From Niabella agricola (lineage in GTDB: Bacteria; Bacteroidota; Bacteroidia; Chitinophagales; Chitinophagaceae): 64,000 nucleotides of DNA. The stretch lies in the NCBI RefSeq assembly GCF_021538615.1, contig NZ_JAJHIZ010000002.1, forward strand, positions 248,001 to 312,000, written 5' to 3'. Below, one piece after another: positions 35,756 through 63,970 of this stretch (position 1 is the stretch's first letter; the number at the start of each line of letters is the position of its first letter). Made by a program: the position numbers and the translations under genes. The notes below the pieces were generated by a model. The model searched no databases and had not been told where the DNA came from. It saw only the letters and a program-made list of their open reading frames with translations.

Positions 35756-37009
35756 GTGGATAGAGTTATAGAAAAAAAATTTTGGAACAGGAAGCGGATA
35801 TGGACCATTGCGGGTATTACGGCCCTGGCGTTGCTCATCATTTTCAGTATCGTGATGGCGGGTGGTAAAAGTAAGCTGAATGTAGACCTGGAACGGATCA
35901 CTGTAAGTGAAGTAAAGAAAGCTGCGTTTAAAGAATACATTCCTGTAAACGGGGTGGTGCTGCCCATTAGTACCATCTACCTGGACGCTATGGAAGGGGG
36001 AAGGGTTGAAGAAAAATTTGTAGAAGACGGAGCCATGATGAAAAAAGGGGAGCCGATATTGCGGCTTAGCAATACAGACCTTGAGCTGAACCTGATCGGT
36101 CAGCAATCGGCGGTATATACCACGCTGGCACAGGTACAGCTGGCTAAATCAACGGCCCAGCAGAATACCGTAAACAACCTGAACCAGATGACCGATGCCG
36201 AAAGCCAGCTAAAGGAAGCAGAACGTTTATATAACCTGAATAAATATCTTTATGAAAACAAAGCAATCGGCGAGCAGGAATTCCGCAAATCGGAGATCGA
36301 CTATAATTATAAACTCAAAAAAAGAGACCTTGCAGAACGCATCACCAAACAGGATGCTGAATCCAACCAGCTGCAAACCCGACAGGCCGGTCAGTCCTTT
36401 AGTAATTCTCAAAAAGCACTAGGACTGTACAGCAGGAAAGTAGGGGATCTCGTGTTGCGTGCGCCGGTAGACGGGCAACTGACCTCGCTGGATGCGGAGA
36501 TCGGACAATCTAAAAACAAGGGCGAACGGCTGGGACAGATCGATGTGCTGACCGGTTATAAAGTGCGGGTAGATATTGACGAGCATTATATTGCCCGGGT
36601 TTTTAACGGCCTTACGGGAGATGTAACCGTGGCCGGAAAGAATTATCAGCTGCGGGTCAAAAAAGTATATACCCAGGTAACCAATGGACGTTTCCAGGTT
36701 GACATGGAATTTGTGGGCGATGTGCCCAAAGATATCCGCCGTGGCCAAACCCTGCAGATCAGCCTGGCGCTGAGCGATGAAACAACCGCTGTATTGCTGG
36801 CCAAGGGCGGCTTTTATCAGCAAACCGGCGGCAACTGGGTATTTAAGCTGAGCGATGACGGTAAAACCGCCTACAAAGCAGAAGTACAGCTGGGCCGCCA
36901 GAACCCGGATTACTATGAAGTGCTGAAAGGACTGAAACCGGGCGATAAGGTAGTGACCAGCAGTTACGAGAATTATGGAGATATGCAGGAATTGGTGTTG
37001 AAGCAGTAG
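35756..37009 (+). CDS. Periplasmic adaptor (membrane fusion protein) of the ABC exporter
   Basis: This 417-residue protein starts with GTG at 35756. A membrane helix (about 15-36, 'WTIAGITALALLIIFSIVMA') anchors a HlyD/MacA-type adaptor. A barrel half precedes ('MEGGRVEEKFVEDGAMMKKGEPIL'-like lipoyl segment, about 75-100), a long coiled-coil hairpin spans about 110-220, then the second lipoyl half 'VLRAPVDGQLTSLDAEIGQSK' region and beta-barrel 'KVRVDIDEHYIARVF'. It links inner-membrane permease and outer-membrane channel. It is the only adaptor gene beside nine permeases. An upstream TTG (35705) would also be in frame but is less likely. Confidence 0.9.
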   Translation: MDRVIEKKFWNRKRIWTIAGITALALLIIFSIVMAGGKSKLNVDLERITVSEVKKAAFKEYIPVNGVVLPISTIYLDAMEGGRVEEKFVEDGAMMKKGEPILRLSNTDLELNLIGQQSAVYTTLAQVQLAKSTAQQNTVNNLNQMTDAESQLKEAERLYNLNKYLYENKAIGEQEFRKSEIDYNYKLKKRDLAERITKQDAESNQLQTRQAGQSFSNSQKALGLYSRKVGDLVLRAPVDGQLTSLDAEIGQSKNKGERLGQIDVLTGYKVRVDIDEHYIARVFNGLTGDVTVAGKNYQLRVKKVYTQVTNGRFQVDMEFVGDVPKDIRRGQTLQISLALSDETTAVLLAKGGFYQQTGGNWVFKLSDDGKTAYKAEVQLGRQNPDYYEVLKGLKPGDKVVTSSYENYGDMQELVLKQ

Positions 37010-37016
37010 TGTGAGC

Positions 37017-37161
37017 ATTGAGATACGAGATTCCAGATTTGAGATACGAGATTAGAGAACCGGGATTCCGTAAACCAGGCCGGGAACCATCGCTCTGATA
37101 TAGTTTCCAACCTGAAATTTTAAATCCGGGTTATGTCTCAAATCTGGATCTGTCTCCTGAA
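37017..37161. repeat. Degenerate repeat left of the four-helix-bundle pseudogene
   Basis: 'GAGATACGAGATTCCAGATT' and 'TGAGATACGAGATTAGAG' run in the GAGATT orientation, the reverse complement of the CAAATCT runs to the right of the pseudogene (37575-37661). Confidence 0.65.
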
Positions 37162-37506
37162 TCATAGTTTCTTTGAATAGGCATGGATCATTTTCCTGAC
37201 TTCAATAACTCTTAAGGAAAAGAGGCAAAGTCGTCGATGGAAATAAATCCGATGTCTTTTGATAATAAAAGCTGGTATTCCAATTCGAAAACGGACCCGG
37301 TGGCGATGGTTAGAAACCGTTTGAAATCTGGTTTTGTTGAGCGCCCGGAACCTTCTGCTATATTAGCGGGAATGGAAGCGGCCGCGGCGCATTTGTGAAA
37401 TAAGGCCAAACAATTCGTCCTTAGGAAAGGATGAAGTTAGTTTATAAACGTCCAATGTGAGCATATGCGCTTTTTGCCACAAAATCGGGTGCTGGTAGTT
37501 TAACAT
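37162..37506 (-). pseudogene. Four-helix-bundle (23S rRNA intervening-sequence) protein, two frameshifts
   Basis: Read with frame changes, this is one ~115-codon gene of the four-helix-bundle/S23 family. 'MLNYQHPILWQKAHMLTLDV' starts at 37506 and runs to 'FGLISQMRR'. Then the frame shifts in a GC-only run (about 37375-37385) and resumes with 'AAASIPANIAEGSGR'. 'STKPDFKRFLTIATGSVFE' and 'LEYQLLLSKDIGF' follow. A second shift near 37213 is needed to reach the expected tail 'VIEVRKMIHAYSKKL' and its stop at 37162. Each break leaves an early stop codon. It lies antisense between adaptor and ATPase genes that are normally adjacent, so it looks like a decayed insertion. Sequencing errors cannot be excluded, but neighbouring genes are intact. 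Confidence 0.75.
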
Positions 37507-37574
37507 AGTAATTGTTTTAATAGGTGAAATATAAATATACGGTAAATATTTGTTCAGCAATCATCCAGGTAACT

Positions 37575-37661
37575 GACCCGGTCTCAACCCCGGATCTCAA
37601 ACTGAAATCTGAAGTCTCAAATCTCAAATCCCGAATCTGAAATCTCAAAACTCAATTCTAT
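37575..37661. repeat. Degenerate CAAATCT repeat directly before the ATPase gene
   Basis: Successive words GAAATCTGAAGTCTCAAATC and TCAAATCCCGAATCTGAAAT continue to within three bases of the ATPase start codon. The repeat therefore forms the translation initiation leader of that gene. Confidence 0.7.
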
Positions 37662-37663
37662 CA

Positions 37664-38341
37664 ATGATCAAAATAACCAATCTCGAAAAAATCTATCGCA
37701 CGGAAGAAGTGGAAACCGTTGCGCTGAACGACCTCTCATTCGAAGTAAAGGAGGGTGAGTTTGTAGCAGTGATGGGGCCTTCCGGCTGCGGTAAGTCTAC
37801 ACTGCTGAATATACTCGGGTTACTGGATGACCCCGATGCCGGAAGTTTTTTGTTTAATGGTGTTGAAGTGGCCAAATTCAACGAGCGGAAGCGTGCCGAT
37901 ATGCGGAAAAAAAATATCGGGTTTGTGTTCCAGAGTTTTAACCTGATTGATGAACTGACCGTGTTTGAAAATGTAGAACTGCCGTTGATGTATGCGGGTG
38001 TAAAAAAATCGGACCGCAAGGCCCGTGTAGATGAAGTGCTGGAGAAAGTACAGATCATGCACCGCCGCAATCACTTTCCGCAACAGCTTTCGGGCGGGCA
38101 GCAGCAGCGTGTGGCCGTTGCTAGAGCCGTTGTGAATAAACCCAAATTGATCCTGGCCGATGAGCCAACCGGTAACCTGGACAGCAGTAACGGAAATGAA
38201 GTCATGCAGATGCTTACCGACCTGAACGAAGCCGGCACCACCATTGTTATGGTAACACACAGTGAACATGATGCCCGCTATAGTCATCGTATTATCCGGA
38301 TGCTGGACGGGCATACGGTTACCGAGAATATTCTGGTATAG
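37664..38341 (+). CDS. MacB/LolD-type ABC transporter ATPase
   Basis: This 225-residue protein has Walker A 'GPSGCGKST' (38-46), Q-loop '[14 protein letters not shown]', signature '[14 protein letters not shown]', Walker B '[13 protein letters not shown]' and H-loop 'MVTHSEHD'. It belongs to the LolD/MacB/FtsE group, whose members drive mechanotransmission permeases that do not carry substrate through the membrane but push it from the periplasm. It is the only ATPase in the locus, upstream of nine cognate-type permeases, so it probably powers several or all of them. The start codon directly follows a repeat, with no ribosome binding site seen. Confidence 0.96.
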
Positions 38342-38344
38342 CGA

Positions 38345-38400
38345 TGGGGTAATAGGTAATGGTGAGTAGTGAATGGTCGATAGCGACGGAGACCGGCAAT
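38345..38400. repeat. GTGAATGG-type degenerate repeat after the ATPase gene
   Basis: 'GGTAATGGTGAGTAGTGAAT' and neighbouring words resemble stretches after permeases 6 and 7 (56520 and 58999). It is a second repeat flavour, distinct from CAAATCT. Confidence 0.5.
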
Positions 38401-38473
38401 GAGAAGGAGCCTGGCGTTCCGGAGCGGTTCTGGTCTGAAATTATTGTAAAACCTGCAGGAATAAAGCAAAACG

Positions 38474-38480
38474 TGTAACA
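38474..38480 (+). promoter_or_regulatory. TGTAACA box upstream of the S41 peptidase
   Basis: TGTAACATTT occurs here and again at 47690, upstream of the DUF4097 gene. TGTAACA resembles an ECF-sigma -35 element. No convincing -10 was identified, so this is tentative. Confidence 0.3.
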
Positions 38481-38535
38481 TTTTTCAGCTTTATGGTACT
38501 ATTAATAAATAGTAGTCCACTTTTAAAATGACATC

Positions 38536-39954
38536 ATGATCAAAGGTTCCTGTACTTTCTTTCTGAGTTGCTTGCTCACCTGTTTTAACCTGACGGTTCA
38601 TTTTCCGGGGAATGCACAAATCGCAAATACGATTTCTGCTGCCGATAAGGTTTATGGTTTGTCGAAGTTCTGGCAGGAGGTGAATTATAATTTTGTTTAT
38701 CTCGATAAGATTGACCGCAAGGCATGGGATAGCACCTATAAAGCATTGATTCCCCAGGTTCAGGAAACGAAAAATGATTATGAGTATTACCGGTTGCTGG
38801 AAAAATTCTGCGCTATGCTCAATGACGGGCATACTAATATTTTCCGCCCGCAGATAAAGGGATTACAGATCATGCAGAATGCATTCGGCGATCACCTGGT
38901 GGTGGTAAAACAGGTTGCAGGTAAGCCGGTCATTGTGCGCTCATGGAAAAAGGATCAATTGATACTGCCAGTGGGAAGCGAAATTGTGGAAGTAAACGGA
39001 AGTTCCGCTGAACAGCATATAAGGGAGCAGTTGCTGCCCTATATTTCCAGTTCTACCGAATACGTAAAATGGAAAGGGGCCACCCACTGGATGCTTGCGG
39101 GTGCACCCGGTTCTGCCTTCCGTATCAGAATAAAGAAGCCCGATGGGAAAGCGTCGGTTGTAAACCTGGTACATGCAAAGGTAACCGACAGCATTTATTT
39201 TCCAGAACTGGGCGCCTATTATGATGAGCAGAAACGGGAATTACTGGAATTTAAAATGCTGGAAGGCGGCGTAGCGTATCTTGGATTGAATGGTTTTTCG
39301 AACCGGAAAATCGATACCCTGTTTGATGCTATCCTGCCGCAGCTCTACCAGGCTAAGGGTCTAATTGTGGACCTTCGTTTCAATGGTGGAGGAAGCACCG
39401 ATATCGGCACGTACATCCTGAAATATCTGATTGCTGATACGGTTTTGGCAGGGGCAAGATATACTACCCGGGAGCACCTGCCGGCGTTTAAGGCCTGGGG
39501 AGGCTTTGTTACGGAAAAAGATACGGTTGGCAACGCATGGAATAAAAAGTGCCTGGAGGTCTTCAAAGGCGTATACACCTATAATTTTCCGTATGCACCA
39601 GATACATTCACGCTCCATAAGCCCCGTATTGTGGTTCCTACAGTGATCCTTACGGGAAATAATACCGCTTCTGCCGCGGAAGATTTCCTGATTGCAGCAG
39701 ATGCTCAAAAGCATATGGTTCGTATGGGGGAGCCTAGTTTCGGGAGCACCGGCCAGCCGATGGTTTTTGATATGCCTGGCGGAGGTTCGGCAAGGGTGTG
39801 TACAAAAAAAGATACCTATCCCGATGGCCGGGAGTTTGTGGGGTACGGTATACAACCCCATATAACCGTAATCCCCACTGTTCAGGACTACCTGGCGGGC
39901 AAAGATGTGGTGAAGGATGCGGCACTGGGTTATCTGCTTAAAAAGATAAAATAG
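38536..39954 (+). CDS. S41-family (C-terminal processing type) secreted peptidase
   Basis: This 472-residue protein has a signal peptide (about 1-29, ending 'GNAQ'). A helical N-terminal domain (to about 110) and a PDZ-like region ('LILPVGSEIVEVNGSSAEQ') precede the S41 core: 'AKGLIVDLRFNGGGSTDIG', 'LTGNNTASAAEDFLIAA' (catalytic Ser in TASAAE) and 'FGSTGQPMVF'. It is similar to tail-specific proteases and tricorn-like enzymes. It sits between the ATPase and the first permease, 112 bp before it, suggesting a role in trimming peptides handled by the exporter. This is inference. Confidence 0.9.
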   Translation: MIKGSCTFFLSCLLTCFNLTVHFPGNAQIANTISAADKVYGLSKFWQEVNYNFVYLDKIDRKAWDSTYKALIPQVQETKNDYEYYRLLEKFCAMLNDGHTNIFRPQIKGLQIMQNAFGDHLVVVKQVAGKPVIVRSWKKDQLILPVGSEIVEVNGSSAEQHIREQLLPYISSSTEYVKWKGATHWMLAGAPGSAFRIRIKKPDGKASVVNLVHAKVTDSIYFPELGAYYDEQKRELLEFKMLEGGVAYLGLNGFSNRKIDTLFDAILPQLYQAKGLIVDLRFNGGGSTDIGTYILKYLIADTVLAGARYTTREHLPAFKAWGGFVTEKDTVGNAWNKKCLEVFKGVYTYNFPYAPDTFTLHKPRIVVPTVILTGNNTASAAEDFLIAADAQKHMVRMGEPSFGSTGQPMVFDMPGGGSARVCTKKDTYPDGREFVGYGIQPHITVIPTVQDYLAGKDVVKDAALGYLLKKIK

Positions 39955-40066
39955 TCTTATACGGGCGGATCTTTTTGAAGCAGAACGGTAATTGCATACG
40001 TAAATCATGAATTGTATATAAATCAAACAACGTATCAGGGAATGCGAATGCCTCAAATCAGAACCC

Positions 40067-42439
40067 ATGTTCAAAAATTATTTTAAAACCGCATGGCGGA
40101 GCCTTTGGGCAAATAAGTTTTACAGCTTGTTGAATGTAAGCGGACTTGCTGTTGGGTTGGCCGCAGGGATCCTGCTGCTGATCTGGGTGCAGCATGAGTT
40201 TGGTTACGACAAATTCCACAGCAGATCCCAGAATATCTACCGGATCAATGTGGAGATTCCTTCGGCTGATAAGCCACTGTTCTGGTCGGCAACACCTGGT
40301 TCGCTGGCAGTTATTGCCAAAAAGATACCCGAGGTTCAATCCCTTGTAAGAATATCGGGAGCAGGGCAGGTGCTGTCTGATGAATCCAATAAAAAAATAC
40401 TAACCGGGAATGTGCTGGCCTGTGTAGACAGCAACTTTTTTTCCGTGTTTGATTTCGGAATATTAAAAGGGAATCTTCAAACCGTGCTTCCCGGGGTGCA
40501 GTCGATAGCGCTTACGCGTTCAACCGCCCAGAAATTGTTTGGTACGGAAGATGCACTGGGAAAAACCGTCCGGCATCATGAAACTGATTTTACGGTTTCG
40601 GCCATTCTCAAAGATGTTCCCGAAAATTCCACGCTTCGTTTCGACGCGTTGTTCCCGATGGCGCTTTATGCGCAGAACTTTACCCGGAACGGAGGTAACG
40701 GCAGCTGGAAAACGATTGATGAGGACATGGGGAATTATAGTTTCGAATCCTACGTATTACTACATCCCAATGCTCATATCCCGCACGTGGAGCAGGCATT
40801 TACCGGGTTGTACCAGCAGGCAAGAAACGACGATAATAAAAGCAAATTCCATCTGCAGCGTCTGCAGGACCTGCACCTGGTTGGTAATGATGGCAGTACT
40901 GCTGCCTTGCTGATTGTACAGGTGATCTTTGCGGTGGCCCTGCTGCTGCTGGTAATTGCCAGCATCAATTATGTAAATCTGTCTACAGCCCGGGCGCTCA
41001 CGCGTGTAAAAGAGGTCAGCGTTCGAAAAATTGTAGGAGCCGGGCGGATCCAGCTTTTTTTTCAGTTTGTGACTGAAACCATTTTGTTGTTCTGTTTGGC
41101 CTTAATGCTGGCTGCCGGACTTATTGTGCTGCTGATGCCCTTATACAATACGATAGCCGGGAAAGAACTGGTGTTTCATCCGGGAGATGACGGCATCTGG
41201 AAGGCGGTTGGCTTGGCCGGGCTGATCACGCTTGTTTTGTCGAGTATTTATCCTGCCCTCTTGTTATCGTCTTTTAAACCCGTTCGCTCGTTAAAAGGAG
41301 CATTACCATCCGGTATCGGGATTGCTGCACTGAGAAAGGGGTTAGTGGTTTTCCAGTTTTTTGTGTCGATCGTGTTACTGATCGGCACGGTGGCCATGGG
41401 CCGGCAAATGCAATATATAAAAGACAAAAACCTGGGCTTCGATAAAAGCTATGTATTTACAGCGGATTTTCCTACAAACGATGCAAAGCACCTGGATGCC
41501 ATCAAAACGGAATTGGGTAAAGAGCCGGCGATTCTTTCCGTTGGAAATTCTTCGGAACCGGATATTATGAATGTGACCAGCGGATCGGGTGATCTGGAAT
41601 GGAAGGGAAAAACGCCGGATATGCAACTAATGATCAGCGAAGTGGCGACAGAGAAAAATTTTCTGCCCACCTTAAAACTGCCCTTCGTTGAAGGCGGCGA
41701 TTTCTCGGGAACACCTGCAGACAGCAACAAGTATATAGTAAATGAAACGGCCGTAAAACAAATGGGATTAAAGCCGCCCTATGTAGGACAGCCGCTTACG
41801 TCTCACGGACGCCAGGGGCTGATAACCGGGGTATTAAAGGATTTCAATTTTCAGCCGCTTACAAAGGCGATAGGGCCGATCTTGTTTCATACATTCTGGA
41901 AGGGGAATATATTTTATATACGTACCACCGGTAACGGTGCGCAGGCCGCCATACAGGCGGTGGAGCGGGAGTATAAAAAATATGCGGATGGCCTGCCCTT
42001 CCATTATGAATTTTTGGATAAAAAATTTGACGCGCAATACCGGGCGGAGCAGCGTACCGGCATGCTGTTTAATGTGTTTGCGGGCATCGCGATCTTTATT
42101 TCATGTTTGGGCCTGTTTGGGCTGGCTACATATACGGCACAGCGGAAAGTAAAAGAGATTGGGATCCGGAAGGTATTGGGAGCCAGTGTGCCGGGTATTG
42201 TGGGACTGATTTCCACCGGTTTTTTAAAATTGATATTGGTTGCCGTTGTGCTGGCGATGCCGGTTGCATATATCGGAACCCATCGTTGGCTGCAAAATTT
42301 TGCTTACCACGCAAGCCTCCCATGGTTCCTGTTTGCGTTGGCGGCGGTCTTTGTTTTGTTGATCGCTTTTGCAACCATGTGCCTGCAGGCCGTGAGAGCC
42401 GCAATGGCTAACCCGGTTAACGCATTGCGAAGCGAATAA
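40067..42439 (+). CDS. MacB/FtsX-type ABC permease 1 (class A)
   Basis: This 790-residue single-chain permease has two MacB-like halves. The order is helix 1 (about 20-42), periplasmic domain (43-280), three FtsX helices (281-410), a fourth near 430 that begins the second half, a second periplasmic domain (450-670) and three last helices. The predicted ATPase-contact helices are 'RVKEVSVRKIVGAGR' and 'KVKEIGIRKVLGASV', and it ends NPVNALRSE. Class A markers are 'LQDLHLVGN' and 'LKDFNFQPLTKAIGP'. It lacks the GGxIxYVRMF motif of class B. Two halves in one chain mimic a MacB dimer, so one polypeptide plus two ATPase copies could make a full transporter. Substrate unknown. Confidence 0.93.
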   Translation: MFKNYFKTAWRSLWANKFYSLLNVSGLAVGLAAGILLLIWVQHEFGYDKFHSRSQNIYRINVEIPSADKPLFWSATPGSLAVIAKKIPEVQSLVRISGAGQVLSDESNKKILTGNVLACVDSNFFSVFDFGILKGNLQTVLPGVQSIALTRSTAQKLFGTEDALGKTVRHHETDFTVSAILKDVPENSTLRFDALFPMALYAQNFTRNGGNGSWKTIDEDMGNYSFESYVLLHPNAHIPHVEQAFTGLYQQARNDDNKSKFHLQRLQDLHLVGNDGSTAALLIVQVIFAVALLLLVIASINYVNLSTARALTRVKEVSVRKIVGAGRIQLFFQFVTETILLFCLALMLAAGLIVLLMPLYNTIAGKELVFHPGDDGIWKAVGLAGLITLVLSSIYPALLLSSFKPVRSLKGALPSGIGIAALRKGLVVFQFFVSIVLLIGTVAMGRQMQYIKDKNLGFDKSYVFTADFPTNDAKHLDAIKTELGKEPAILSVGNSSEPDIMNVTSGSGDLEWKGKTPDMQLMISEVATEKNFLPTLKLPFVEGGDFSGTPADSNKYIVNETAVKQMGLKPPYVGQPLTSHGRQGLITGVLKDFNFQPLTKAIGPILFHTFWKGNIFYIRTTGNGAQAAIQAVEREYKKYADGLPFHYEFLDKKFDAQYRAEQRTGMLFNVFAGIAIFISCLGLFGLATYTAQRKVKEIGIRKVLGASVPGIVGLISTGFLKLILVAVVLAMPVAYIGTHRWLQNFAYHASLPWFLFALAAVFVLLIAFATMCLQAVRAAMANPVNALRSE

Positions 42440-42531
42440 ACGATGGTATAAAGTGAATGGTATATTAGAGGGCAGGATCAGCAGGAACGCTTACTGCTGG
42501 TATCCGGATGCCCGACTCTTAAATCTGGAAA

Positions 42532-44904: not shown

Positions 44905-44905
44905 G

Positions 44906-44942
44906 GGAGATTTCAGGTTTGAGGTTTACGGTTTCAGGTTGG
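44906..44942. repeat. Degenerate repeat after permease 2
   Basis: 'GAGATTTCAGGTTTGAGG' and 'TTTACGGTTTCAGGTTGG' are GAGATT-orientation variants of the family, starting directly after the stop codon. Confidence 0.5.
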
Positions 44943-44956
44943 ATCCGTTCTACGTT

Positions 44957-44972
44957 TGGCGCAGCTGCGCCA
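44957..44972. other. Perfect 16-bp palindrome between permeases 2 and 3
   Basis: TGGCGCAGCTGCGCCA is a perfect inverted repeat without spacer in the 256-bp gap. It could be a protein site or, as RNA, a short GC-rich hairpin. No T run follows. Confidence 0.5.
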
Positions 44973-45160
44973 CTCCCGGTCTCTGCAACATCCTGATCGA
45001 AGGAAAGGTCATGAAGCCGCAACCGCATCCCTGCTTTTATATTTAATGTTTTACATTCCTTATTTAAAATCCCGAAAGGGTGCTTGATGCAAAAAACAGG
45101 CCGCCAATGACCAGACAAACAGCAGATAGCTAATAACTAAAAACTATAAATCTCAACACG

Positions 45161-47557: not shown

Positions 47558-47639
47558 GTGGTTTCGGGTTTAAGGTTCCATATTGGCCTCCTTTTGACGC
47601 ATGATGTTGGCAGTCAGATCTCCGATCACCAGGGGGCTA

Positions 47640-47685
47640 TGGCTGAAATCTGATAGTTGAAATCTGAAACTCAAATCTCAGCTCT
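47640..47685. repeat. Degenerate CAAATCT repeat before the DUF4097 gene
   Basis: 'GAAATCTGATAGTTGAAATC' and 'TGAAACTCAAATCTCAGC' end four bases before a TGTAACA box (47690-47696), another case where a repeat adjoins a putative promoter. Confidence 0.6.
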
Positions 47686-47792
47686 ATACTGTAACATTTC
47701 TTTGCTGCCTGCGATTATCTATTATAAACCGTGCTTTGAAGGACCGGTGTAATAAACGAACCTACGATTCTTACGGAAACAAAAAAGTTAGT

Positions 47793-48833
47793 ATGAAAAA
47801 GAATTTTTTATTATTACTGCTGCTGGTGGGCGTGTGCTGCTCCCATGCGCAACGGTACTCCGGTGTTGCACCGTATCTTACAAAAAATTTCAGTGCGGCT
47901 GCTGTAAAAGAGATAAGGGCCGAAACCTCGGGCGGGTCTATATCCGTTGAAGGGGGTAAAACCTCCGGACTGGTGGAAGTGTATGTGGAACCCTCCAACG
48001 GCGGTCTGCGAAGAAAAATGTCGGATAACGATATTAAAACCATACTGGACCGGTATTACGACCTTGAAGTAAGCACTTCCGGTAATGTGGTGGTGGCGAA
48101 AGCTTCCCGGAGGGACCGTGGCTGGAGCGATCAAACGGGCCTGTCGATTTCGTTTAAGATCTATACGGGAACGAACGTCAACACGAACTTAAAGACCAGC
48201 GGCGGAAGCATTCACCTGAGGAGCCTGAAGGGCGATCAGTTTTTTAAAACCAGTGGCGGCAGTTTGCTGGTAAAAGAGGTGGCCGGAAAAATTTCCGGGA
48301 AAACCTCCGGTGGCAGTATCGATGTGTCGGATTCCCGGGATGAAATTGATCTGGTGACCAGTGGCGGTTCTATTAAGGCGGATCATCTGGAGGGCCGGAT
48401 CCGGCTGAAGACTTCAGGCGGATCCCTGAATCTGTCGGACCTTTCCGGCAATATTGAAGCGCGTACGAGTGGCGGATCGGTTACTGCATCGGATATCAAA
48501 GGCGATCTGTTTACCAGTACCTCCGGCGGCAGCGTTACCTTAAGAGGGATTAACGGCAACCTGGATGCCAGCACCTCCGGAGGCCGGATCCGGGCGGAGC
48601 TTGTAGGTACAAAAGATTTTATAAAGCTGCATACCTCTGCAGGCGGCGTGGATATCGATATGCCGCGTACCACAAATGCACAATTCAATCTCAGGGGAAG
48701 TAAAGTAAATATCAGCCGTCTTGGTGATTTTAACGGTTCCATTGAAAAAGACCAGGTAAAAGGCGTAATTGGTGCCGGTAAATTACTGGTGGAGGTTTCA
48801 GCTTCCAGTGGCGTCGTTGATGTGAATATGTAA
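47793..48833 (+). CDS. DUF4097-type secreted beta-solenoid protein with TSGGS repeats
   Basis: This 346-residue protein starts at MKKNFLLLLLLVGVCCS, a signal peptide ending near residue 21. The mature part has about ten copies of a 20-23-residue unit centred on TSGGS (for example 'KTSGGSIHLRS', 'KTSGGSIDVSD', 'RTSGGSVTASD', 'STSGGSVTLRG'), ending in 'TSAGGVDIDMPRT'. Each unit should form turns of a right-handed beta-helix, as in the DUF4097/adhesin-like families. A start 19 codons upstream is in frame but precedes the signal peptide. It sits between the two permease blocks, so it may be an exported cargo or surface partner of the exporter; this is inference. Confidence 0.88.
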   Translation: MKKNFLLLLLLVGVCCSHAQRYSGVAPYLTKNFSAAAVKEIRAETSGGSISVEGGKTSGLVEVYVEPSNGGLRRKMSDNDIKTILDRYYDLEVSTSGNVVVAKASRRDRGWSDQTGLSISFKIYTGTNVNTNLKTSGGSIHLRSLKGDQFFKTSGGSLLVKEVAGKISGKTSGGSIDVSDSRDEIDLVTSGGSIKADHLEGRIRLKTSGGSLNLSDLSGNIEARTSGGSVTASDIKGDLFTSTSGGSVTLRGINGNLDASTSGGRIRAELVGTKDFIKLHTSAGGVDIDMPRTTNAQFNLRGSKVNISRLGDFNGSIEKDQVKGVIGAGKLLVEVSASSGVVDVNM

Positions 48834-48876
48834 TACAGACAGCTTCGGATAAAGCGGCTGCATCGTTGCCGTACAT

Positions 48877-48908
48877 AAGCGTCATTCTGTTCCACCGGAA
48901 TGACGCTT
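48877..48908 (+). terminator. Hairpin terminator after the DUF4097 gene
   Basis: A perfect 11-bp stem AAGCGTCATTC/GAATGACGCTT with a 10-nt loop lies 43 bp after the stop. The following GCTGTTTTG is a weak U tract, so efficiency is uncertain. The rest of the 356-bp gap to 49190 holds the activator element and promoter below. Confidence 0.6.
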
Positions 48909-49029
48909 GCTGTTTTGAAGGCAACACATCGGTTCATGTACAGGATGCCAGAGGCTTTGTAAACCATTTTAGCGGTATACATGCATCGCTATTATAAGCC
49001 GTAGACGCCGGGCGATGCTGTTTAAAGGT

Positions 49030-49068
49030 GTACCAAAACCGGACAGTTTTTTGTTTTAAAAGCGGACA
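49030..49068 (+). promoter_or_regulatory. Upstream activator-type element, copy 3
   Basis: GTACCAAAACCGGACAGT begins the element, with half-sites CGGACA at 49040 and CGGACA at 49063, identical and in direct repeat, 23 bp apart. It matches copy 2 at 17 of the first 18 bases despite 13 kb separation. It precedes permease 4. Confidence 0.6.
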
Positions 49069-49120
49069 TTTCAATCTTTGTTTCTTTGTTAATATATTGA
49101 TTAGTAGTTTTTTAAATTTA

Positions 49121-51634: not shown

Positions 51635-51665
51635 GTAACGAAATACTTCCGGTAAAAGAACATAT

Positions 51666-54038: not shown

Positions 54039-54128
54039 GCAATAATCAATAGGCAGCGGAGGATCGTAAATAAAAAGTTACACCATAGATTTCTCATTAT
54101 AAACAGCTCACTTTGATACTCAAAAAAA

Positions 54129-56513: not shown

Positions 56514-56566
56514 GGAGTTGGCAATAGTGAATGGCGAACAGGCAATAGCGATAGGGAATGGAAGAT
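56514..56566. repeat. GTGAATGG-type repeat after permease 6
   Basis: 'GGCAATAGTGAATGGCGAAC' and 'GGCAATAGCGATAGGGAATG' are tandem variants of one short word; they fill most of the 96-bp gap. Confidence 0.5.
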
Positions 56567-56609
56567 TATAGATAGTACTTCTCACCCGGATACTCAAACA
56601 AAAAAAACA

Positions 56610-58997
56610 ATGATCAAAAATTATATAAAGACGGCCTGGAGAGGGCTTGTGCGCAACAAGGCTTTTTCACTGATTAATGTGCTGGGGCTTTCGGTGGGGA
56701 TGACGGCCTGCTTTATTATCTATATGTATGTTGGTTTTGAGCGCAGTTATGATACCTTCCATACCAGGGCTGACCGTATTTACAAGGTTGTTGCCGATGT
56801 AAAAACACCCACGGAAACGATCACCACCCAGGGGGTTACATCAGCGCCCGTTGCCATAAACCTGAAACAGGACTTTCCGGAAGTAGAAGAAGCCGTACGG
56901 TTTGCAGGCGACGGATTCCTGCTGCGCAAAGGAGATGTGTTTTTCCAGGAAAAAAAATCAGTGCTTGCAGACTCTGCGCTATTCGATGTATTTGATTTCC
57001 CATTGGTGTCTGGCAATAAAAAGACGGCGTTGAAGGAGCCGATGAGCATCGTCCTCTCGCAAACAACAGCAAAAAAATATTTTGGAAATACAAACCCTCT
57101 TGGGCAACAGGTATTGCTGACCGGCGCGGCCATTAATGCCACGATCACGGGAGTAATGAAAGATATTCCCGAAAACTCACAGATACAGGCGGATTTGTTT
57201 GTGTCCATGTCCTCCTATCGCCAGATCTATGGTGTTCCAACGGCCGACAGCGAGTGGACCAACCATGGATTTTACACATATATACTGCTGAAACCAGGTG
57301 CGGATGCAAAAAAACTTGCCTCAAAATTTCCGGCATTTATGGAGTATCATCATGGAAGGCAGGCCAGGGAGCTGCAAATGCAGGATTATTTAAGTCTTGA
57401 ACCGTTGCGCGATGTCTACCTCAGGTCAAAGCGAGATGGCTTTGTATCGGGAAGTATCAATAATGTATATATTTTTTCAGTTATCGCTGTTTTTATCCTG
57501 CTGATCGCCTGCGTTAATTTTATAAATCTGACTACAGCTCGTAGCGCAGAACGTGCAAAAGAAGTAGGCGTGCGTAAAGTAATAGGAGCAGCGCGCTTTC
57601 AGCTGGCCGGTCAGTTTATTGGTGAGTCTGTTATGATTGCCCTGATGGCCTTTGTGGTTTCTGTGTTTTTGTCGTTCATGCTGATCCCTCTGTTCAATCA
57701 GCTTGCCGGCAAAATTATCACTCCTGGTATCTTCCACAACCCGCTGCATGTGTTGGAGTTGTTTGTGCTATCTCTTGTCATTGGTGTTATCGCCGGTATC
57801 TATCCGTCGTTCGTTTTGTCGTCCTTTAAGCCGGTAAATGTACTGAGAGGACACCTGGTGACGGGAACCCAACGACTCCTGTTAAGAAAAGGATTGGTGG
57901 TTTTTCAATTTGCAATATCCATTGTGTTAATGGTGGGTACCATCGTGGTAGCGGCGCAGCTAAAGTATATGCGTAGCCGGGACCTGGGGTTTAACAAAGC
58001 GCATACCCTGTTTATAAATACCAATTTTGACAAAAATAAAGACCGGTTTAAACAATCACTTTCGGGTATCCCCGGGGTGTTGTCCTCCTGTTATTCTGCA
58101 TTTATTCCGGGGGGAGGAAATACCGCTGCCTATTCTGAACTGGAAAATAAGAATGGCGAAATGCAGAAAACCAATATGGATCTCTATTTTGTTGATTTTG
58201 ATTATATTCATCAATACCAGCTGCAACTGGTGGCCGGGCGTGGATTTTCACCGGCCTTTAAAACCGACAGTACGCAGGCGATGGTGATCAATGAAACGGC
58301 CGTCCGTTCTCTGGGTTATGCCAATCCCAAAGATGCCGTTGGCAAAAACTATAGTCAATGGGGGAGCAAAGGGAAAATAATCGGTGTGGTTAAAGATTTT
58401 CATTTTCAATCATTGTTACAGCCCGTAAAACCGTTAACAATGCGCTACGATCCCGGTACGTTTACGATGATCTCCATAAAACTTTCTTCAAAAAATCTTC
58501 CCGAAACGATAAAGAATATTGAACAACACTGGAGGCAGATTGTTCCCAACCGGCCATTTGAATATGCCTTTTTAGATACGTTTTTTGATGAACAATATCA
58601 TGCAGAAGACCGGTTCAGTAATTTGTTTTTCAATTTTGCAATACTTGCCATTTTTATTTCATGCCTGGGTTTGTTAGGACTTTCACTATACAGCACCCTT
58701 CAGCGTACAAAAGAAATAGGTGTTCGAAAAGTTTTAGGCGCCCGGGCTACCAATATAGTGATGCTGTTATCGTCGGGATTCTTAAAGCTGGTATTGATTG
58801 CTTTTCTTATCGCGTTACCCGTGGCGTGGTTGGGTATGAATAAATGGCTGGATGGCTTCGCATATCATATTCATATAACCTGGTGGATGTTTGCTGTGGC
58901 GGGGTTAACGGCAGTGCTGGTTGCGTTTCTCACAATCAGTATACAAGGGCTGAAAGCAGCCCTGGCCAATCCCGTGCGGGCGCTGAGGTCGGAGTAA
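56610..58997 (+). CDS. MacB/FtsX-type ABC permease 7 (class A)
   Basis: This 795-residue permease lies 96 bp after permease 6. N-terminus 'MIKNYIKTAWRGLVRNKAFS'. Contact helices are 'RAKEVGVRKVIGAAR' and 'RTKEIGVRKVLGARA'; it ends NPVRALRSE. Class A markers are 'PLRDVYLRSKRDG' and 'VKDFHFQSLLQPVKP'. Its second domain contains a distinctive Gly/Asn stretch 'FIPGGGNTAAYSELEN'. Confidence 0.93.
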   Translation: MIKNYIKTAWRGLVRNKAFSLINVLGLSVGMTACFIIYMYVGFERSYDTFHTRADRIYKVVADVKTPTETITTQGVTSAPVAINLKQDFPEVEEAVRFAGDGFLLRKGDVFFQEKKSVLADSALFDVFDFPLVSGNKKTALKEPMSIVLSQTTAKKYFGNTNPLGQQVLLTGAAINATITGVMKDIPENSQIQADLFVSMSSYRQIYGVPTADSEWTNHGFYTYILLKPGADAKKLASKFPAFMEYHHGRQARELQMQDYLSLEPLRDVYLRSKRDGFVSGSINNVYIFSVIAVFILLIACVNFINLTTARSAERAKEVGVRKVIGAARFQLAGQFIGESVMIALMAFVVSVFLSFMLIPLFNQLAGKIITPGIFHNPLHVLELFVLSLVIGVIAGIYPSFVLSSFKPVNVLRGHLVTGTQRLLLRKGLVVFQFAISIVLMVGTIVVAAQLKYMRSRDLGFNKAHTLFINTNFDKNKDRFKQSLSGIPGVLSSCYSAFIPGGGNTAAYSELENKNGEMQKTNMDLYFVDFDYIHQYQLQLVAGRGFSPAFKTDSTQAMVINETAVRSLGYANPKDAVGKNYSQWGSKGKIIGVVKDFHFQSLLQPVKPLTMRYDPGTFTMISIKLSSKNLPETIKNIEQHWRQIVPNRPFEYAFLDTFFDEQYHAEDRFSNLFFNFAILAIFISCLGLLGLSLYSTLQRTKEIGVRKVLGARATNIVMLLSSGFLKLVLIAFLIALPVAWLGMNKWLDGFAYHIHITWWMFAVAGLTAVLVAFLTISIQGLKAALANPVRALRSE

Positions 58998-59033
58998 ACA
59001 ATTGTGAATGGTGAATAGTGAATAGCGGGTGGG
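58998..59033. repeat. GTGAATGG-type repeat after permease 7
   Basis: 'ATTGTGAATGGTGAATAGTG' followed by AATAGCGGG is the clearest tandem copy of this repeat flavour. Confidence 0.5.
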
Positions 59034-59093
59034 AGGTCGTACATAACATTTTTCTCTATAAACGTTTCACCCGAGAGTTCAAAAAATAAAAAA

Positions 59094-61454
59094 ATGATCA
59101 GAAATTACATCAAAACAGCATGGCGCAACTTATCCCGGAATAAGGGGTTTATGTTAGTTAATTTATTGGGACTTTCCATCGGGATTTCTGCTACCCTGCT
59201 GATCCTGCTTTGGGTGAAGGATGAACTTACGTATGACCGGTTTCAGAAGCATTATGACGACATTCATATGGTGGTAGCCAATCGTGATTTTAAGAACCGC
59301 GTATTTACCGACTATAATATGGTACTACCTATGGCCCGGGAATTGCAGCAGGCTGATCCCCTCATCAGGAACGCTACGGTTACGACTCAGAACTATGATC
59401 TGCTGCTCCATGTAAAGGAGACCAAGCTCCGGAAGGGAGGCCTGACCGTAGGGGATCATTTTTTTGATATTTTTTCCTGGAAATTCCTGAAGGGTAGTCC
59501 CGCACATGCACTCAGCGATCCTTCGTCGATTGTGCTGACCGCATCCGCGGCCAAGGCATTATTTGGGAATGAAGACCCGGTAAACAAAACGATCCGGATT
59601 GTTGAAGAGAAACGGGATGCCAGGGTTACAGCCATCCTTGCAGATCCTCCGGGCAATTCAGCGTTCCGGTTTGATTTCCTGACGCCGTTTAATTATAATG
59701 ATCCGGCGACAAAGCAAATGATGGAGAACTGGGTAGGATCAAGCTGGCGGGTGTACGTACAAACGGCCCCCGGTGCAGATATAAAAAGGGTGGACGCGGT
59801 TATCAACCGTGTAAAAAAACAGCATGACCCGGGCGATAAGATTAGTACCTATTTTACTTTTCCGATGAAGCGCTGGCATCTTTATGACGAATTTAAAGAG
59901 GGTAAAAACGTGGGCGGCATGATTGAATACGTGCGCATGTTCATTATTGTTGCAATCATCATCCTGCTGATTGCCTGTGTGAATTTTATGAATCTTTCCA
60001 CGGCGCGCTCGGAAAAGCGGTCAAAAGAGGTAGGCATCCGCAAAACCCTCGGATCCGGCAAGTTGAGACTGGTATTGCAGTTCTTTTCAGAGTCGATGAT
60101 GTTGGTACTGATCGCATTTGTGGTTTCCATAGGAATCGTATTGCTGTTGCTGCCTTCTTTCAATCAGCTGGTAAATAAAAAACTGGAACTCGAGTTCGGG
60201 CAACCGGTATTCTGGCTGGGAAGCTTGGCCATCATCATTATAACCGGTATCCTTGCAGGCAGTTACCCGGCTCTATACCTGTCTTCATTCCGCCCGGTGA
60301 AAGTGCTGAAAGGTGTTTTTGTATCCAGCGGTAAAACCGCATTGCCCCGCCATATACTGGTGGTATTCCAGTTTATGATCTCCATCCTGCTGATCTCCGC
60401 CACGATTATTGTATACCAGCAAATACAGCATATAAAGGACCGCAAGACGGGGTATGACGCCCACAACCTGCTGATGATTACCGGAACGGAGGAAACCGAA
60501 AAGAACTTTGCAGTTATCAAGCAGGAGTTATTGCAAAGCAGGACCGTTACCGCCGTTACGCGTTCCAGTTCGCCCATTACGCAGGTATGGTGGAAGTCTG
60601 GTGCACCGGACTGGAACGGGAAGCCGGCTGATCTGAATGTGATCATTTCGGGCATACGGACGGATCTCGATTTTACAAAAACAATGGGCATCCGGTTACT
60701 TCAGGGCCATGATTTTACCGGTAATCCCGCTGATTCCGCTTCCATACTGATCAACAAAGCAGCTGTAGAAGCTATGGGCCTGGAACATCCGGTTGGAATG
60801 GAAATGCGGTTTGGTGATGAAAAATACCAGGTGATCGGTGTTACCGGAAATGTGGTGATGGAATCGCCGTTTCAGCCGGTGGATCCCATGTTGACCTTCT
60901 ACAAACCCAACGCCACCGGCGTGATCAGTTTGCGTATTGCCGATGAAATACCCGTGAAAAAAGCGCTGACTTCGATTGAAGCGGTATTTAAAAAATATAA
61001 CCCGGCTTATCCTTTCGAATATCAGTTTGCAGATAACGAGTTCGGACAGAAATTTATAAGCGAAGAACTGATTAGCCGGATCACTAATATTTTTGCGGGG
61101 CTGGCCATTTTTATCTGCTGCATAGGACTGGGTGGACTGGCCGCGTATACAGTAGAGCGGCGGTTCCGGGAAATAGGCATCCGCAAAGTGCTGGGGGCAA
61201 CCATCAGCCAGGTATTATTGCTGATCGGGCGCGAGTTCCTGAAACTGGTGATGATCGCATTTGTAATTGCAGTACCCCTTACCTGGTGGCTGATGTATCA
61301 CTGGCTTCAAAAGTACACGTATCACATTCATATCAGCATACTGGTATTTGCGGCTGTAGGCGTATTGGTTTTGTTACTGGCGTTATTGGTGGTAGGATTG
61401 AATACGTTCCGTGCGGCTATGGCCAACCCGGTGCGTTCGTTGCGAACAGAGTAG
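59094..61454 (+). CDS. MacB/FtsX-type ABC permease 8 (class B)
   Basis: This 786-residue permease lies 96 bp after permease 7. N-terminus 'MIRNYIKTAWRNLSRNKGFM'. Contact helices are 'RSKEVGIRKTLGSGK' and 'RFREIGIRKVLGATI'; it ends NPVRSLRTE. Class B markers are 'PMKRWHLYDEFKEG', 'VGGMIEYVRMF', 'WWKSGAPDWNGK' and 'VTGNVVMESPFQPVDP'. The last half reads 'CCIGLGGLAAYTVERRF', slightly divergent from the CLGLFGL pattern of most others. Confidence 0.93.
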   Translation: MIRNYIKTAWRNLSRNKGFMLVNLLGLSIGISATLLILLWVKDELTYDRFQKHYDDIHMVVANRDFKNRVFTDYNMVLPMARELQQADPLIRNATVTTQNYDLLLHVKETKLRKGGLTVGDHFFDIFSWKFLKGSPAHALSDPSSIVLTASAAKALFGNEDPVNKTIRIVEEKRDARVTAILADPPGNSAFRFDFLTPFNYNDPATKQMMENWVGSSWRVYVQTAPGADIKRVDAVINRVKKQHDPGDKISTYFTFPMKRWHLYDEFKEGKNVGGMIEYVRMFIIVAIIILLIACVNFMNLSTARSEKRSKEVGIRKTLGSGKLRLVLQFFSESMMLVLIAFVVSIGIVLLLLPSFNQLVNKKLELEFGQPVFWLGSLAIIIITGILAGSYPALYLSSFRPVKVLKGVFVSSGKTALPRHILVVFQFMISILLISATIIVYQQIQHIKDRKTGYDAHNLLMITGTEETEKNFAVIKQELLQSRTVTAVTRSSSPITQVWWKSGAPDWNGKPADLNVIISGIRTDLDFTKTMGIRLLQGHDFTGNPADSASILINKAAVEAMGLEHPVGMEMRFGDEKYQVIGVTGNVVMESPFQPVDPMLTFYKPNATGVISLRIADEIPVKKALTSIEAVFKKYNPAYPFEYQFADNEFGQKFISEELISRITNIFAGLAIFICCIGLGGLAAYTVERRFREIGIRKVLGATISQVLLLIGREFLKLVMIAFVIAVPLTWWLMYHWLQKYTYHIHISILVFAAVGVLVLLLALLVVGLNTFRAAMANPVRSLRTE

Positions 61455-61579
61455 CCTGGCTGAATGGGAGTAATGGGTGCGCCGGTAGGGGATGGTCAAC
61501 CTGGGCCTGCGGTCAAAACAAGTACCCTTTACCACTTGTCACCGGTTCCCGGCCATGAAGTATTAAGACACATTGAAGC

Positions 61580-63970
61580 ATGTTTAAGAACGACATAAAA
61601 ATAGCACTCCGTAATAGCTGGCGCGACCGGTTCTACTCCGGTTTAAACCTCCTGGGGCTGGCCGTTGCCATCGCTACTTTTTTGCTGATCATAAATTATG
61701 TGCGTTTTGAACGCAGCTATGAAGCTTTTCATAAGAATGCCGCAAATATGTACCGGGTTACGGTGGATATGTACAAAGGCAGCGAATACGTTGGTACGGA
61801 TTGTGAAACCTATCCTCCGCTTGGACCGATGCTGGTGCAAACCATGCCGGAAGTGATCGGCTACGTACGCCTGCAGGATCTGGGAACGGTTGAAGTGCAA
61901 CACAGAGACAGGGCCGTGTTAATCAGTAAGGCCTATGCTGCAGATGCTTCCGTATTTTCTGTTTTTAGTTACAGTCTTTTACGGAAAAAGCAGGGCGTAT
62001 TGTCCTCACCGGACCAGTTGGTGATCACGGCCGCCGTGGCTCAAAAACTTTTCGGTACGATTGAAGTATTGGATAAAACGGTACGGGTAAAGGACCGGTT
62101 GTTTACCATTGCCGGCGTAGCGGAAGACATTCCGGCTAACACGCATCTGAAGTTTGAAATGCTGTTGCCCTTTGACTACATCAAAACCTTGGGATTTGAT
62201 CCCGGTAACTGGAACGGGAATAATAATTTTACGTACCTGTTGATGAAGCCCGGTACCGGGCTCAACCGCTTTAATGAAAAACTGCGTCAATTTTCCCATG
62301 CCCGGTTAAAACACGAAGTGTTAAAAGCAGAACCGGTAAAAGATATTCATCTCTATTCCAATAAATCCTTTGAACCGGAAGCAAACGGCAGCCATCTTGT
62401 TGTGGATTTTCTGATGATGATTGCACTGCTGATTTTGTTTATTGGAGTAGCGAATTATATAAATATAACCACGGCCCGTCTTGTAGAGCGTTCAAAGAAT
62501 GTGAGCGTTCGGAAAGTGCTCGGGTCATCCCGCTGGTCCCTGGTAAAGCTGTTTTTTACAGAATCGCTGATCATGAGCTCGGTCGCCTTCGTTTTGGCGT
62601 TATTGCTGGTGCAGGTATCTATGCCTGCTTATCGCGCCATTACGGGAGTCGGTTCCGGCGGATGGTTATGGCGTAGTGCTGGTTTTTGGATGTTTTCGGG
62701 GGTACTGTTTGTGTTGATTTGCCTGCTGGCGGGGCTATACCCTGCATTGCTGGCATCCGCGGTAAAAATAACTGCGGTTACCAGGCGAACATTCACGGGC
62801 CTCGGAAAAGGAACCAGGCTGCGTAAGGTGCTGGTGTTGGGACAGTTTACTGCTGCCCTGGCCGTGAGCATGTGTGCGGCTGTAATTTATCAGCAGATCC
62901 GGTTTGTAAGAAGCCGTAACCTGGGCATGAATATGGAACAGGTACTGGTGATAAAAGGTCCCCTGATGCCGGCAAGTGATTCCCTGCAGCGGGTTTCAGG
63001 TCAGCGGTTCAAGAATGACCTGCGCCGGATCCCGGGTATAAGGATGGTGGCGTTTTCTTCTTCGCTTCCGGGTGCAGATGATAACACCCTGAATACCCAG
63101 ACCGACGTGCGGCGACTGGCTGCATCTCAAACCACCGGGTATAATTATTATCTCTACGGTGTGGATGAAGACTTTCTGCCCGTACTGAATAACGGCTTGA
63201 TTGCCGGACGTAACTTCTTTGAAGCACCCGTACAGCACAACGAGGTTATTATCAACGAAGAGGCCTGCCGCCTGTTGGGGTTTGAGACGCCGGCTGCGGC
63301 TATTGGTGCAAAAATAAAAGTCAATTCCGGACCTGTTAACGTGGCTACCGTTATCGGAGTGAACCGGAATTACCGTCAACAGTCGTTGAAGCAGGCGCAG
63401 CACCCGCTCATCCTCTGGCATGAACAGGGAATCTATGGATATTTTACCGTAAAATTGGTTACGGGTGAAGTGCATCAGGTGCTGCAGACGATTGCCGGCA
63501 AATGGAAAGAAGATTTTCCGGGCCATACCATGGATTATTTTTTTATGGATGAAATGTATAACCGGCAGTACCAGCAGGATATCAGGTTCGGAAAACTGGT
63601 CAATGTCTTCTCCGTGATTACCCTGTTTATCGCCTGTTTAAGCCTGCTGGGGTTATCGGTATTGAATACGTCCATGAAGACAAAAGAAATTGGAATACGG
63701 AAAGTGATGGGGGCCGGTTTTAGTGAGATACTCGCGCTGCTCTCCGTGGATTTCTTAAAGCTGGTGGTGCTGGCAGTGCTGCTGTCCGTTCCGGTTACCT
63801 TGCTGGCCATGCACGCTTGGCTACAGAACTTTTCCGACCGGATCAGTATACAGTGGTGGTTATTTCCGTTGATGGGTGCGTTCGTGTTGGGAATTGCCCT
63901 GGTCACCATCCTGCTGCAGGCATTCCGGACGATTAAAAAGAACCCGGTGGAAGCCCTGCGAACGGAATAA
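61580..63970 (+). CDS. MacB/FtsX-type ABC permease 9 (class A, most divergent)
   Basis: This 796-residue permease lies 125 bp after permease 8 and ends 30 bases before the window edge. N-terminus 'MFKNDIKIALRNSWRDRFYS'. Contact helices are 'RSKNVSVRKVLGSSR' (Asn replaces the usual Glu) and 'KTKEIGIRKVMGAGF'; it ends NPVEALRTE. Class A markers are 'PVKDIHLYSNKS' and, more diverged, 'NRNYRQQSLKQAQHP'. Whether more permeases follow outside the window cannot be seen. Confidence 0.92.
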   Translation: MFKNDIKIALRNSWRDRFYSGLNLLGLAVAIATFLLIINYVRFERSYEAFHKNAANMYRVTVDMYKGSEYVGTDCETYPPLGPMLVQTMPEVIGYVRLQDLGTVEVQHRDRAVLISKAYAADASVFSVFSYSLLRKKQGVLSSPDQLVITAAVAQKLFGTIEVLDKTVRVKDRLFTIAGVAEDIPANTHLKFEMLLPFDYIKTLGFDPGNWNGNNNFTYLLMKPGTGLNRFNEKLRQFSHARLKHEVLKAEPVKDIHLYSNKSFEPEANGSHLVVDFLMMIALLILFIGVANYINITTARLVERSKNVSVRKVLGSSRWSLVKLFFTESLIMSSVAFVLALLLVQVSMPAYRAITGVGSGGWLWRSAGFWMFSGVLFVLICLLAGLYPALLASAVKITAVTRRTFTGLGKGTRLRKVLVLGQFTAALAVSMCAAVIYQQIRFVRSRNLGMNMEQVLVIKGPLMPASDSLQRVSGQRFKNDLRRIPGIRMVAFSSSLPGADDNTLNTQTDVRRLAASQTTGYNYYLYGVDEDFLPVLNNGLIAGRNFFEAPVQHNEVIINEEACRLLGFETPAAAIGAKIKVNSGPVNVATVIGVNRNYRQQSLKQAQHPLILWHEQGIYGYFTVKLVTGEVHQVLQTIAGKWKEDFPGHTMDYFFMDEMYNRQYQQDIRFGKLVNVFSVITLFIACLSLLGLSVLNTSMKTKEIGIRKVMGAGFSEILALLSVDFLKLVVLAVLLSVPVTLLAMHAWLQNFSDRISIQWWLFPLMGAFVLGIALVTILLQAFRTIKKNPVEALRTE

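Follow-up and report, generated by a model that had tools for sequence, protein, structure and literature searches.

The stretch of 64,000 nucleotides analysed here (the window, C2:248001-312000 of a 6.26-Mb genome of Niabella, family Chitinophagaceae) contains the first part of a gene row of about 50 kb, which codes for 17 permeases, two ATPases, one adaptor and one TolC-type outer channel. Coordinates below are window positions unless prefixed by C2 or C3. The row starts with a divergent two-component system on the - strand, formed by a sensor histidine kinase (31955..33295, HATPase_c) and an NtrC-type response regulator (33282..34712), in which Pfam and the sequence reveal a receiver domain, a sigma-54 AAA+ domain with a GAFTDA loop and a Fis helix-turn-helix; the kinase adjoins the regulator in most of the 80 adaptor loci surveyed below. 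On the + strand follow a secreted-looking protein of 148 amino acids (aa; 34860..35306), without Pfam or NCBIfam match and present in the nearest Niabella relatives, a periplasmic adaptor of the HlyD/MacA/DarC type with a hydrophobic N-terminal segment (35756..37009; HlyD_3, and 171 bits with the DarC model, cut-off 450), the first ATPase, of the MacB/LolD/DarD class (ATP1; 37664..38341; 303 bits with the DarD model, cut-off 375), and an accessory S41 peptidase (38536..39954, Peptidase_S41). The GTG start of the adaptor at 35756 is consistent with its orthologues, and its closest counterparts belong to Niabella pedocola and a Niabella bin (98%) and to N. aurantiaca (92%). The gap between the adaptor and ATP1 (37010-37663, 654 bp) holds degenerate short repeats.

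The permeases come next, all on the + strand of the window: P01 (40067..42439), P02 (42532..44904) and P03 (45161..47557), then an accessory LiaG-like secreted protein (47736..48833; 48 bits with the NCBIfam LiaG model, below its cut-off of 285), and P04 (49190..51634), P05 (51666..54038), P06 (54129..56513), P07 (56610..58997), P08 (59094..61454) and P09 (61580..63970). Past the window end lie P10-P17 (C2:312018-332377), a second ATPase after P17 (ATP2; C2:332585-333262) and a TolC-family outer-membrane protein (OEP/TolC match), the whole of this part spanning C2:312018-334710, after which unrelated-looking genes begin. The initial annotation had described nine intact permeases of ~790-814 residues with one adaptor and one ATPase. 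All nine are real, with a measured length of 786-814 aa, and the window does hold a single HlyD-type adaptor and a single LolD/MacB-class ATPase; however, the array totals 17 permeases, eight of them beyond the window, and the statement that there is no second ATPase does not hold, because the window ended before ATP2. The S41 peptidase and the NPVxxLRxE ending of all nine permeases were correctly recognized, whereas the protein labelled DUF4097 has no Pfam match at 1e-3 and is LiaG-like. Among Niabella arrays the S41 peptidase is present in this genome and in G005, G013 and G014, and the LiaG-like gene recurs in several related arrays.

Permease fold, docking helices and divergence

The permeases carry MacB_PCD and FtsX domains (Pfam), which places them in the type VII ATP-binding cassette (ABC) superfamily (MacB/FtsX/LolCDE). 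P01 is of the eight-transmembrane (8-TM) type with two periplasmic core domains and matches the ADOP model over its full length. ADOP (TIGR03434), an internally duplicated family, gives the top NCBIfam match for each of the six permeases scanned, with 263-341 bits along the whole model, below the cut-off of 622.3. In the structure model of P07 (mean predicted local distance difference test, pLDDT, 94; predicted template modelling score, pTM, 0.90), two 4-TM units, each with a periplasmic core domain between TM1 and TM2 and a coupling helix between TM2 and TM3, give eight TM-length helices, with the coupling helices at residues 316-325 and 700-708, and the halves are joined by a short link (405-419) without extra linking TM helices. 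The 49 best Foldseek matches of this model all belong to the type VII ABC class, the closest full-length fold being YbbP, with BceB also near.

This likeness opens a different, unlikely reading of the locus, in which the permeases would be mechanical or sensory modules, similar to FtsX, BceAB or YbbAP, acting on envelope enzymes or on the two-component system, as a set of envelope stress sensors. The divergent two-component system, the S41 peptidase and the LiaG-like protein would fit an envelope-stress setting, and YbbAP, according to the available text of PMC12646458, partners a hydrolase and not a channel. In contrast, a TolC channel is encoded here, and the arrangement with the adaptor first and ATP2 plus TolC last, found in 28 of 40 mapped loci (see below), is the signature of tripartite efflux. 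Moreover, two extra TM helices link the permease halves in Escherichia coli YbbP, as far as the available text of PMC12646458 and PMC5985334 describes it, whereas the predicted P07 structure has no linking helix among its eight.

The docking pattern [RK]xxE[VILM]xxRKxxG is kept in 33 of the 34 coupling helices of the 17 permeases, as read from an alignment of 317 proteins of at least 740 aa (shorter ones were left out). In 15 of the 17, one common pattern is present in both halves, and the other two differ from it by one residue each. The initial annotation had both docking helices conserved in all nine permeases of the window, which is correct for eight of them; in P09, the conserved Glu of the first coupling helix is replaced by Asn. 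In the same alignment, identity averaged over the 17 paralogues reaches 62% and 75% in the two coupling helices, 58% in the N-terminal helix and 79% at the C-terminus, all of them parts on the cytoplasmic side of this fold, but 24-25% in the two periplasmic domains. When orthologues are compared instead (this genome with G005, 10 pairs, or with G013, 11 pairs), identity rises to 84-88% in the periplasmic domains, inside the range of 82-96% of the membrane helices. Since the periplasmic domains are alike between orthologues and unlike between paralogues, each of them is distinct and kept.

All 17 permease open reading frames (ORFs) are intact, and the ratio of nonsynonymous to synonymous substitution rates (dN/dS) is 0.045-0.129 for the 12 that have a close orthologue, which include P02 (0.045-0.057), P03 and P06-P09; the other five have none. 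Comparison with related genomes, a check proposed with the initial annotation, revealed that each of the 17 is more similar to a protein of another genus than to any neighbour within its own array. The array is thus a collection of old lineages rather than a fresh tandem expansion. Local tandem duplication, reflecting gene dosage or neutral drift and leaving most copies redundant or decaying, is therefore extremely improbable, even though many paralogues adjoin one another, copy number varies among relatives and one assembly (G003) has a broken-looking array copy. Seventeen full-length paralogues side by side, when relatives have the corresponding engine genes and in part the same gene order, are more than chance would produce. 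The interrupted copy (G003:C1:5894000-5916000; L021, L022) is the same locus with many frameshift-like stops, and may reflect uncorrected long reads, the assembly being 72% complete.

The cassette in related genomes and its two ATPases

The arrangement is not peculiar to this array but recurs as a trait of two bacterial families, the Chitinophagaceae and the Sphingobacteriaceae, in the form of a cassette with a divergent NtrC-type two-component system, the adaptor, ATP1, 1 to ~30 permeases, ATP2 and TolC. In an adaptor survey comprising the best 80 of 351 matches, and thus not a random sample, ATP1 was found in the flanks of 77 loci (exceptions L079, L085 and L086) and the regulator near the adaptor in 74 (exceptions L070, L079, L085, L086, L093 and L094); some of the loci without ATP1 or regulator lie at contig ends. 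An MprF-type lysyl-phosphatidylglycerol synthase, encoded at 27612-30218, upstream of the two-component system, was considered as a constant partner and rejected, a homologue (51-94%) occurring near just five of the 80 adaptor loci, four of them in Niabella.

Forty adaptor loci were mapped further for gene content. Most compact rows hold 4 to 11 full-length permeases, but smaller ones have a single permease (L084, L095, L096), two (L048, L099) or three (L041, L055, L066, L067), and large ones have 13 (G005, G007), 15 (N. pedocola), 17 (the present array) or 24 (Segetibacter aerophilus); in Ilyomonas, 29 were counted on the array strand. Parapedobacter (G035, G041) and Olivibacter (G042) depart from the compact form, their 13 to 24 permeases being scattered among other genes over 60-140 kb. 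At the Parapedobacter luteus locus (G035 C18:1-140000; L161-L167), a dispersed form of the system, 24 full-length permeases occupy 140 kb together with ATP1, and ATP2 is on another contig. ATP2 and TolC jointly end the row in 28 of the 40 mapped loci, and a genome search placed ATP2 within the locus in three more (G018, G023, L066). Per-genome permease match counts (22 scored in the array relatives, 9 in the order survey described below) are lower bounds. Among 12 genomes searched, including those with at least 20 permeases, ATP2 is single-copy in all and ATP1 in 11.

The engine genes and the permeases behave differently between relatives. Compared with G007, ATP1 is 99%, ATP2 95% and the adaptor 90% identical, yet among seven reciprocal permease pairs just three of the 17 own permeases are paired at 55% or more (69, 59 and 56%). 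Between G001 and G004, ATP1 (98%), ATP2 (89%) and the adaptor (87%) are again similar, and the best permease identity is 39% (six G004 permeases). A control MacB-type two-chain permease is 81% identical between this genome and G007, and 71% between this genome and either G001 or G004. ATP1 identity is 80-99% across relatives, whereas TolC and the adaptor diverge more than the ATPases (36% and 63%, respectively, against G001). From these identities, the engine genes stay while the permeases turn over.

We also asked how often ATP1 and the pseudo-dimer permease occur together, using 89 genomes sampled evenly across the order and thresholds of E<=1e-90 for ATP1 and E<=1e-58 for the pseudo-dimer permease. 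Such permeases were found in 9 of 9 genomes with ATP1 and in 2 of 80 without it (Fisher p 9e-11, a value that ignores kinship). In three genomes of the same genus as the array (G002, G006, G008), where ATP1 was not searched, the permease model gave weak or partial matches alone.

ATP1 and ATP2 are 52% identical to each other, and both are separate proteins of 225 aa that are not fused to a permease. The Walker A, signature, Walker B and D-loop motifs are intact in 40 of 40 ATP1 orthologues, and the first three are kept in 31 of 31 ATP2. The D-loop has a fixed difference, Asp in all 40 ATP1 against Asn in all 31 ATP2, and further fixed differences include the residues just past the Q-loop glutamine, which in ABC transporters face the coupling helices. 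These differences would fit a pair of subunits that cannot replace each other, with one for each half of the permease. In each of 13 genomes compared, ATP1 identity exceeds that of a control ABC ATPase of the same class (89% for the control and 99% for ATP1 in G007, and 69 against 84% in G039, for example), so ATP1 is unusually constrained, as a part that has to fit many partners should be.

Two other ways of assigning the ATPases have to be weighed. The first is that ATP1 and ATP2 are not partners but homodimers serving different permease subsets, that is, two exporters with a common adaptor and channel. The complete Walker A, signature and Walker B motifs of both proteins imply that each could work alone, and ATP2 is unlinked in four of the 12 genomes (G015, G032, G035, G036), beside a TolC gene in G015 and G032 and beside a permease in G035. 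Nevertheless, the near-constant single copies whatever the permease number, the fixed differences in the D-loop and after the Q-loop glutamine, and the lack of two docking-helix classes, with one pattern shared by 15 of 17 own permeases, make this possibility doubtful. The second is that the permeases use other cellular ATPases, or none, with ATP1 and ATP2 reserved for a few of them. Adjacency alone is no proof of sharing, two genomes (G101 and G118) have the permease without ATP1, and the Niabella genome encodes three other ATPases of the class (E<=1e-45). These three stand against 18 such permeases in all. The co-occurrence with ATP1, the docking helices kept in 33 of 34 cases, the conservation of ATP1 beyond that of the control ATPase, and a shared motif, described next, that stands upstream of both remote permeases and engine genes make this second assignment very unlikely.

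Upstream motif and candidate regulon

Upstream of the adaptor there is a tandem regulator-site-like motif on the + strand (35554..35591), consisting of TGTATCAAAACCGGACA and a second CGNACA 21 bp further on, followed 88 bp past the motif by TGGCAT (35644..35649), a -24-like element of a putative sigma-54-type promoter. The motif was derived from 39 adaptor upstream regions, of which 29 contain an exact TATCRAAANCGNACA. In 22 of these 29 loci a second half-site is present at 20-23 bp, and in 25 TGGCAY lies downstream, at 88-91 bp in 23 of them. The regulator has GAFTDA in place of the GAFTGA loop of sigma-54 activators, and a plain search of the window for the sigma-54 consensus yielded five matches against 4.35 expected, without excess. 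The regulator would bind the tandem sites.

In the own genome TATCRAAANCGNACA has three occurrences, one each upstream of the adaptor, P16 and a lone permease on C3, and the reversed control pattern has none. The 38 related genomes searched contain 134 motif sites in total, compared with 26 sites of the control pattern; three of these genomes lack the motif. We tabulated 137 of 139 sites, omitting one G033 adaptor site and one G007 site that duplicates the surroundings of another. The cassette gene that follows on the same strand is a permease at 45 sites, an adaptor at 31, ATP2 at 7, a LiaG-like gene at 2 and ATP1 at 1, and two sites are beside genes on the opposite strand. Of the 45 permease sites, 40 are away from the mapped arrays, and 22 of these 40 have TGGC[AT][CT] 20-110 bp downstream, compared with 3 of 22 coding-region controls; in 15 of the 22 the spacing is 67-68 bp, shorter than that of the adaptors by about one 21-bp repeat. 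The presence of the motif before adaptors, some array genes, ATP2 and scattered lone permeases suggests one regulon.

The lone pseudo-dimer permease of this genome (G000:C3:4719874-4722273, L008; also L016, L020 and L217) is 37-39% identical to P10, has the same motif upstream, and is conserved in the own genome, G005, G007 and G013; the flanks examined in the own genome, G005 and G007 contain no gene similar to ATP1 or ATP2. At five Niastella/Longitalea-type loci (L188, L227, L228, L234, L240; around position 1500) the motif adjoins the gene of a recurring small (~120 aa) hydrophobic protein on the opposite strand, and at four of them it also precedes an ORF of ~195-200 aa with a common N-terminal stretch; both are perhaps further members of the regulon. 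A 45-residue piece of an ORF downstream of a motif site without cassette gene matched no family in a Pfam scan.

A proposed modular exporter and its relation to known systems

The gene content, the predicted fold, the conservation pattern, the near single-copy engine, the co-occurrence and the common upstream motif are the basis on which we interpret the locus, probably, as a modular type VII (MacB-class) tripartite exporter in which interchangeable permeases use one shared engine. The idea of interchangeable single-chain pseudo-dimer permeases sharing an engine and adaptor was already put forward in the initial annotation, with nine permeases instead of 17, one ATPase instead of two conserved ones and without TolC; it is now supported by comparison, because of the near-constant ATPase copy number, the co-occurrence with ATP1, the engine kept while permeases are exchanged, and the shared motif. 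In the proposed mechanism, the adaptor, the TolC-type channel and the two ATPases would form the engine, and the 17 permeases, together with at least one lone permease, would be alternative cargo-recognition modules that dock in turn. ATP1 and ATP2 would work as a pair, probably a heterodimer in which each subunit sits under one permease half, and the divergent NtrC-type system would turn the genes on through the tandem motif. The two periplasmic domains of each permease may capture a different envelope-active compound, such as an antimicrobial peptide, an antibiotic or a lipophilic molecule, which would then be pushed through adaptor and channel. Export across both membranes is proposed because adaptor and channel are present, and different cargoes because the periplasmic domains are diverse. 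That the substrates are envelope-active peptides or antibiotics is a guess from the MprF, LiaG-like and S41 neighbours.

Several observations weigh against this modular exporter or parts of it. The substrate assignment rests on neighbouring genes. G101 and G118 each have one such permease without ATP1 at the threshold used, G020 has two ATP1 genes, ATP2 is at another locus in the four genomes named above, and P09 has lost the Glu of one docking helix. The conservation of ATP2, unlike that of ATP1, is about that of the control ATPase (95 against 89% in G007, 82 against 85% in G004). As for the regulon, ten of the 39 adaptors have no exact motif copy in the stretch read, the adaptor matches are not independent because the motif was read off adaptor upstream regions, and the four Niabella lone-permease sites are orthologous to each other. 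In addition, 49 of the 137 sites have no cassette gene downstream, 33 of 47 such sites examined lie inside an ORF of at least 100 aa, and the -12 part of the promoter is weak and variable. A bolder version of the exporter model, to which we give even chances, is a universal motor for export in the whole cell, in which one ATP1-ATP2 heterodimer, adaptor and channel would power an open-ended set of permeases, arrayed as well as scattered and quickly exchanged, all under one two-component system.

Like MacAB-TolC, the system encodes a HlyD-class adaptor and a TolC-class channel with its permeases, but the ATPase is separate, of two kinds and not fused to the permease N-terminus, two permease units are in one chain, and there are many alternative permeases per engine. 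The darobactin exporter DarB-DarC-DarD (NF038008, NF038010, NF038007) has the same plan of a one-chain permease with an adaptor and a separate ATPase; DarD and DarC are the best NCBIfam matches for the ATPase and adaptor, and DarB matches four of the six permeases scanned over most of their length. All scores are nevertheless below the cut-offs (DarB 77-125 against 700; DarD and DarC as given above), and the darobactin exporter has one permease and one ATPase, its genes adjoining a precursor peptide and a radical SAM enzyme. With ADOP the permeases share the internal duplication of the permease unit, judged by the whole-length model match and the predicted structure. ADOP is of Acidobacterial origin and without neighbouring ATPases, whereas dedicated ATPases, an adaptor and a channel adjoin the permeases here; the ADOP cut-off was exceeded in none of the 89 genomes of the order survey. 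To our knowledge, ADOP-type duplicated permeases have no known function.

In its logic, the system resembles the group II ECF vitamin transporters, where one energy module, which contains two related ATPases, serves many substrate proteins encoded apart. An ATPase common to several importers is also described in the available text of PMC4519317, and the sugar importers with MsiK or MsmK share theirs. All of these are importers of other folds, and we claim no common descent. RND pumps, which are proton driven, share no ATPase and have few partners, compared with arrays of up to ~30 permeases here. In AcrAB/AcrAD-TolC, and in OprM with several Mex systems, different transporters share their outer channel, and the name AcrA indicates a shared adaptor as well, according to the available text of PMC8277102. 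Type VII ABC exporters are described, in the available text of the sources, as dedicated machines in which one permease pair works with its ATPases. We found no account of such permease arrays or of a shared engine for type VII exporters in the literature searched, mostly without subscription papers; the shared engine thus appears undescribed there, while channel sharing and importer ATPase sharing are already known.

The genomes of two families indicate one engine with 1 to ~30 alternative permeases. With a shared engine, the substrate range could change by gain or loss of a single gene while the motor is left untouched. The system offers a testable role for duplicated permeases without their own ATPase (ADOP type), and the motif predicts which remote permeases may belong to it. 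If the universal-motor version is correct, this would be, as far as the literature was searched, the first case of ECF-style sharing in a type VII ABC exporter, and would provide the Bacteroidota with a mix-and-match repertoire of envelope defence.

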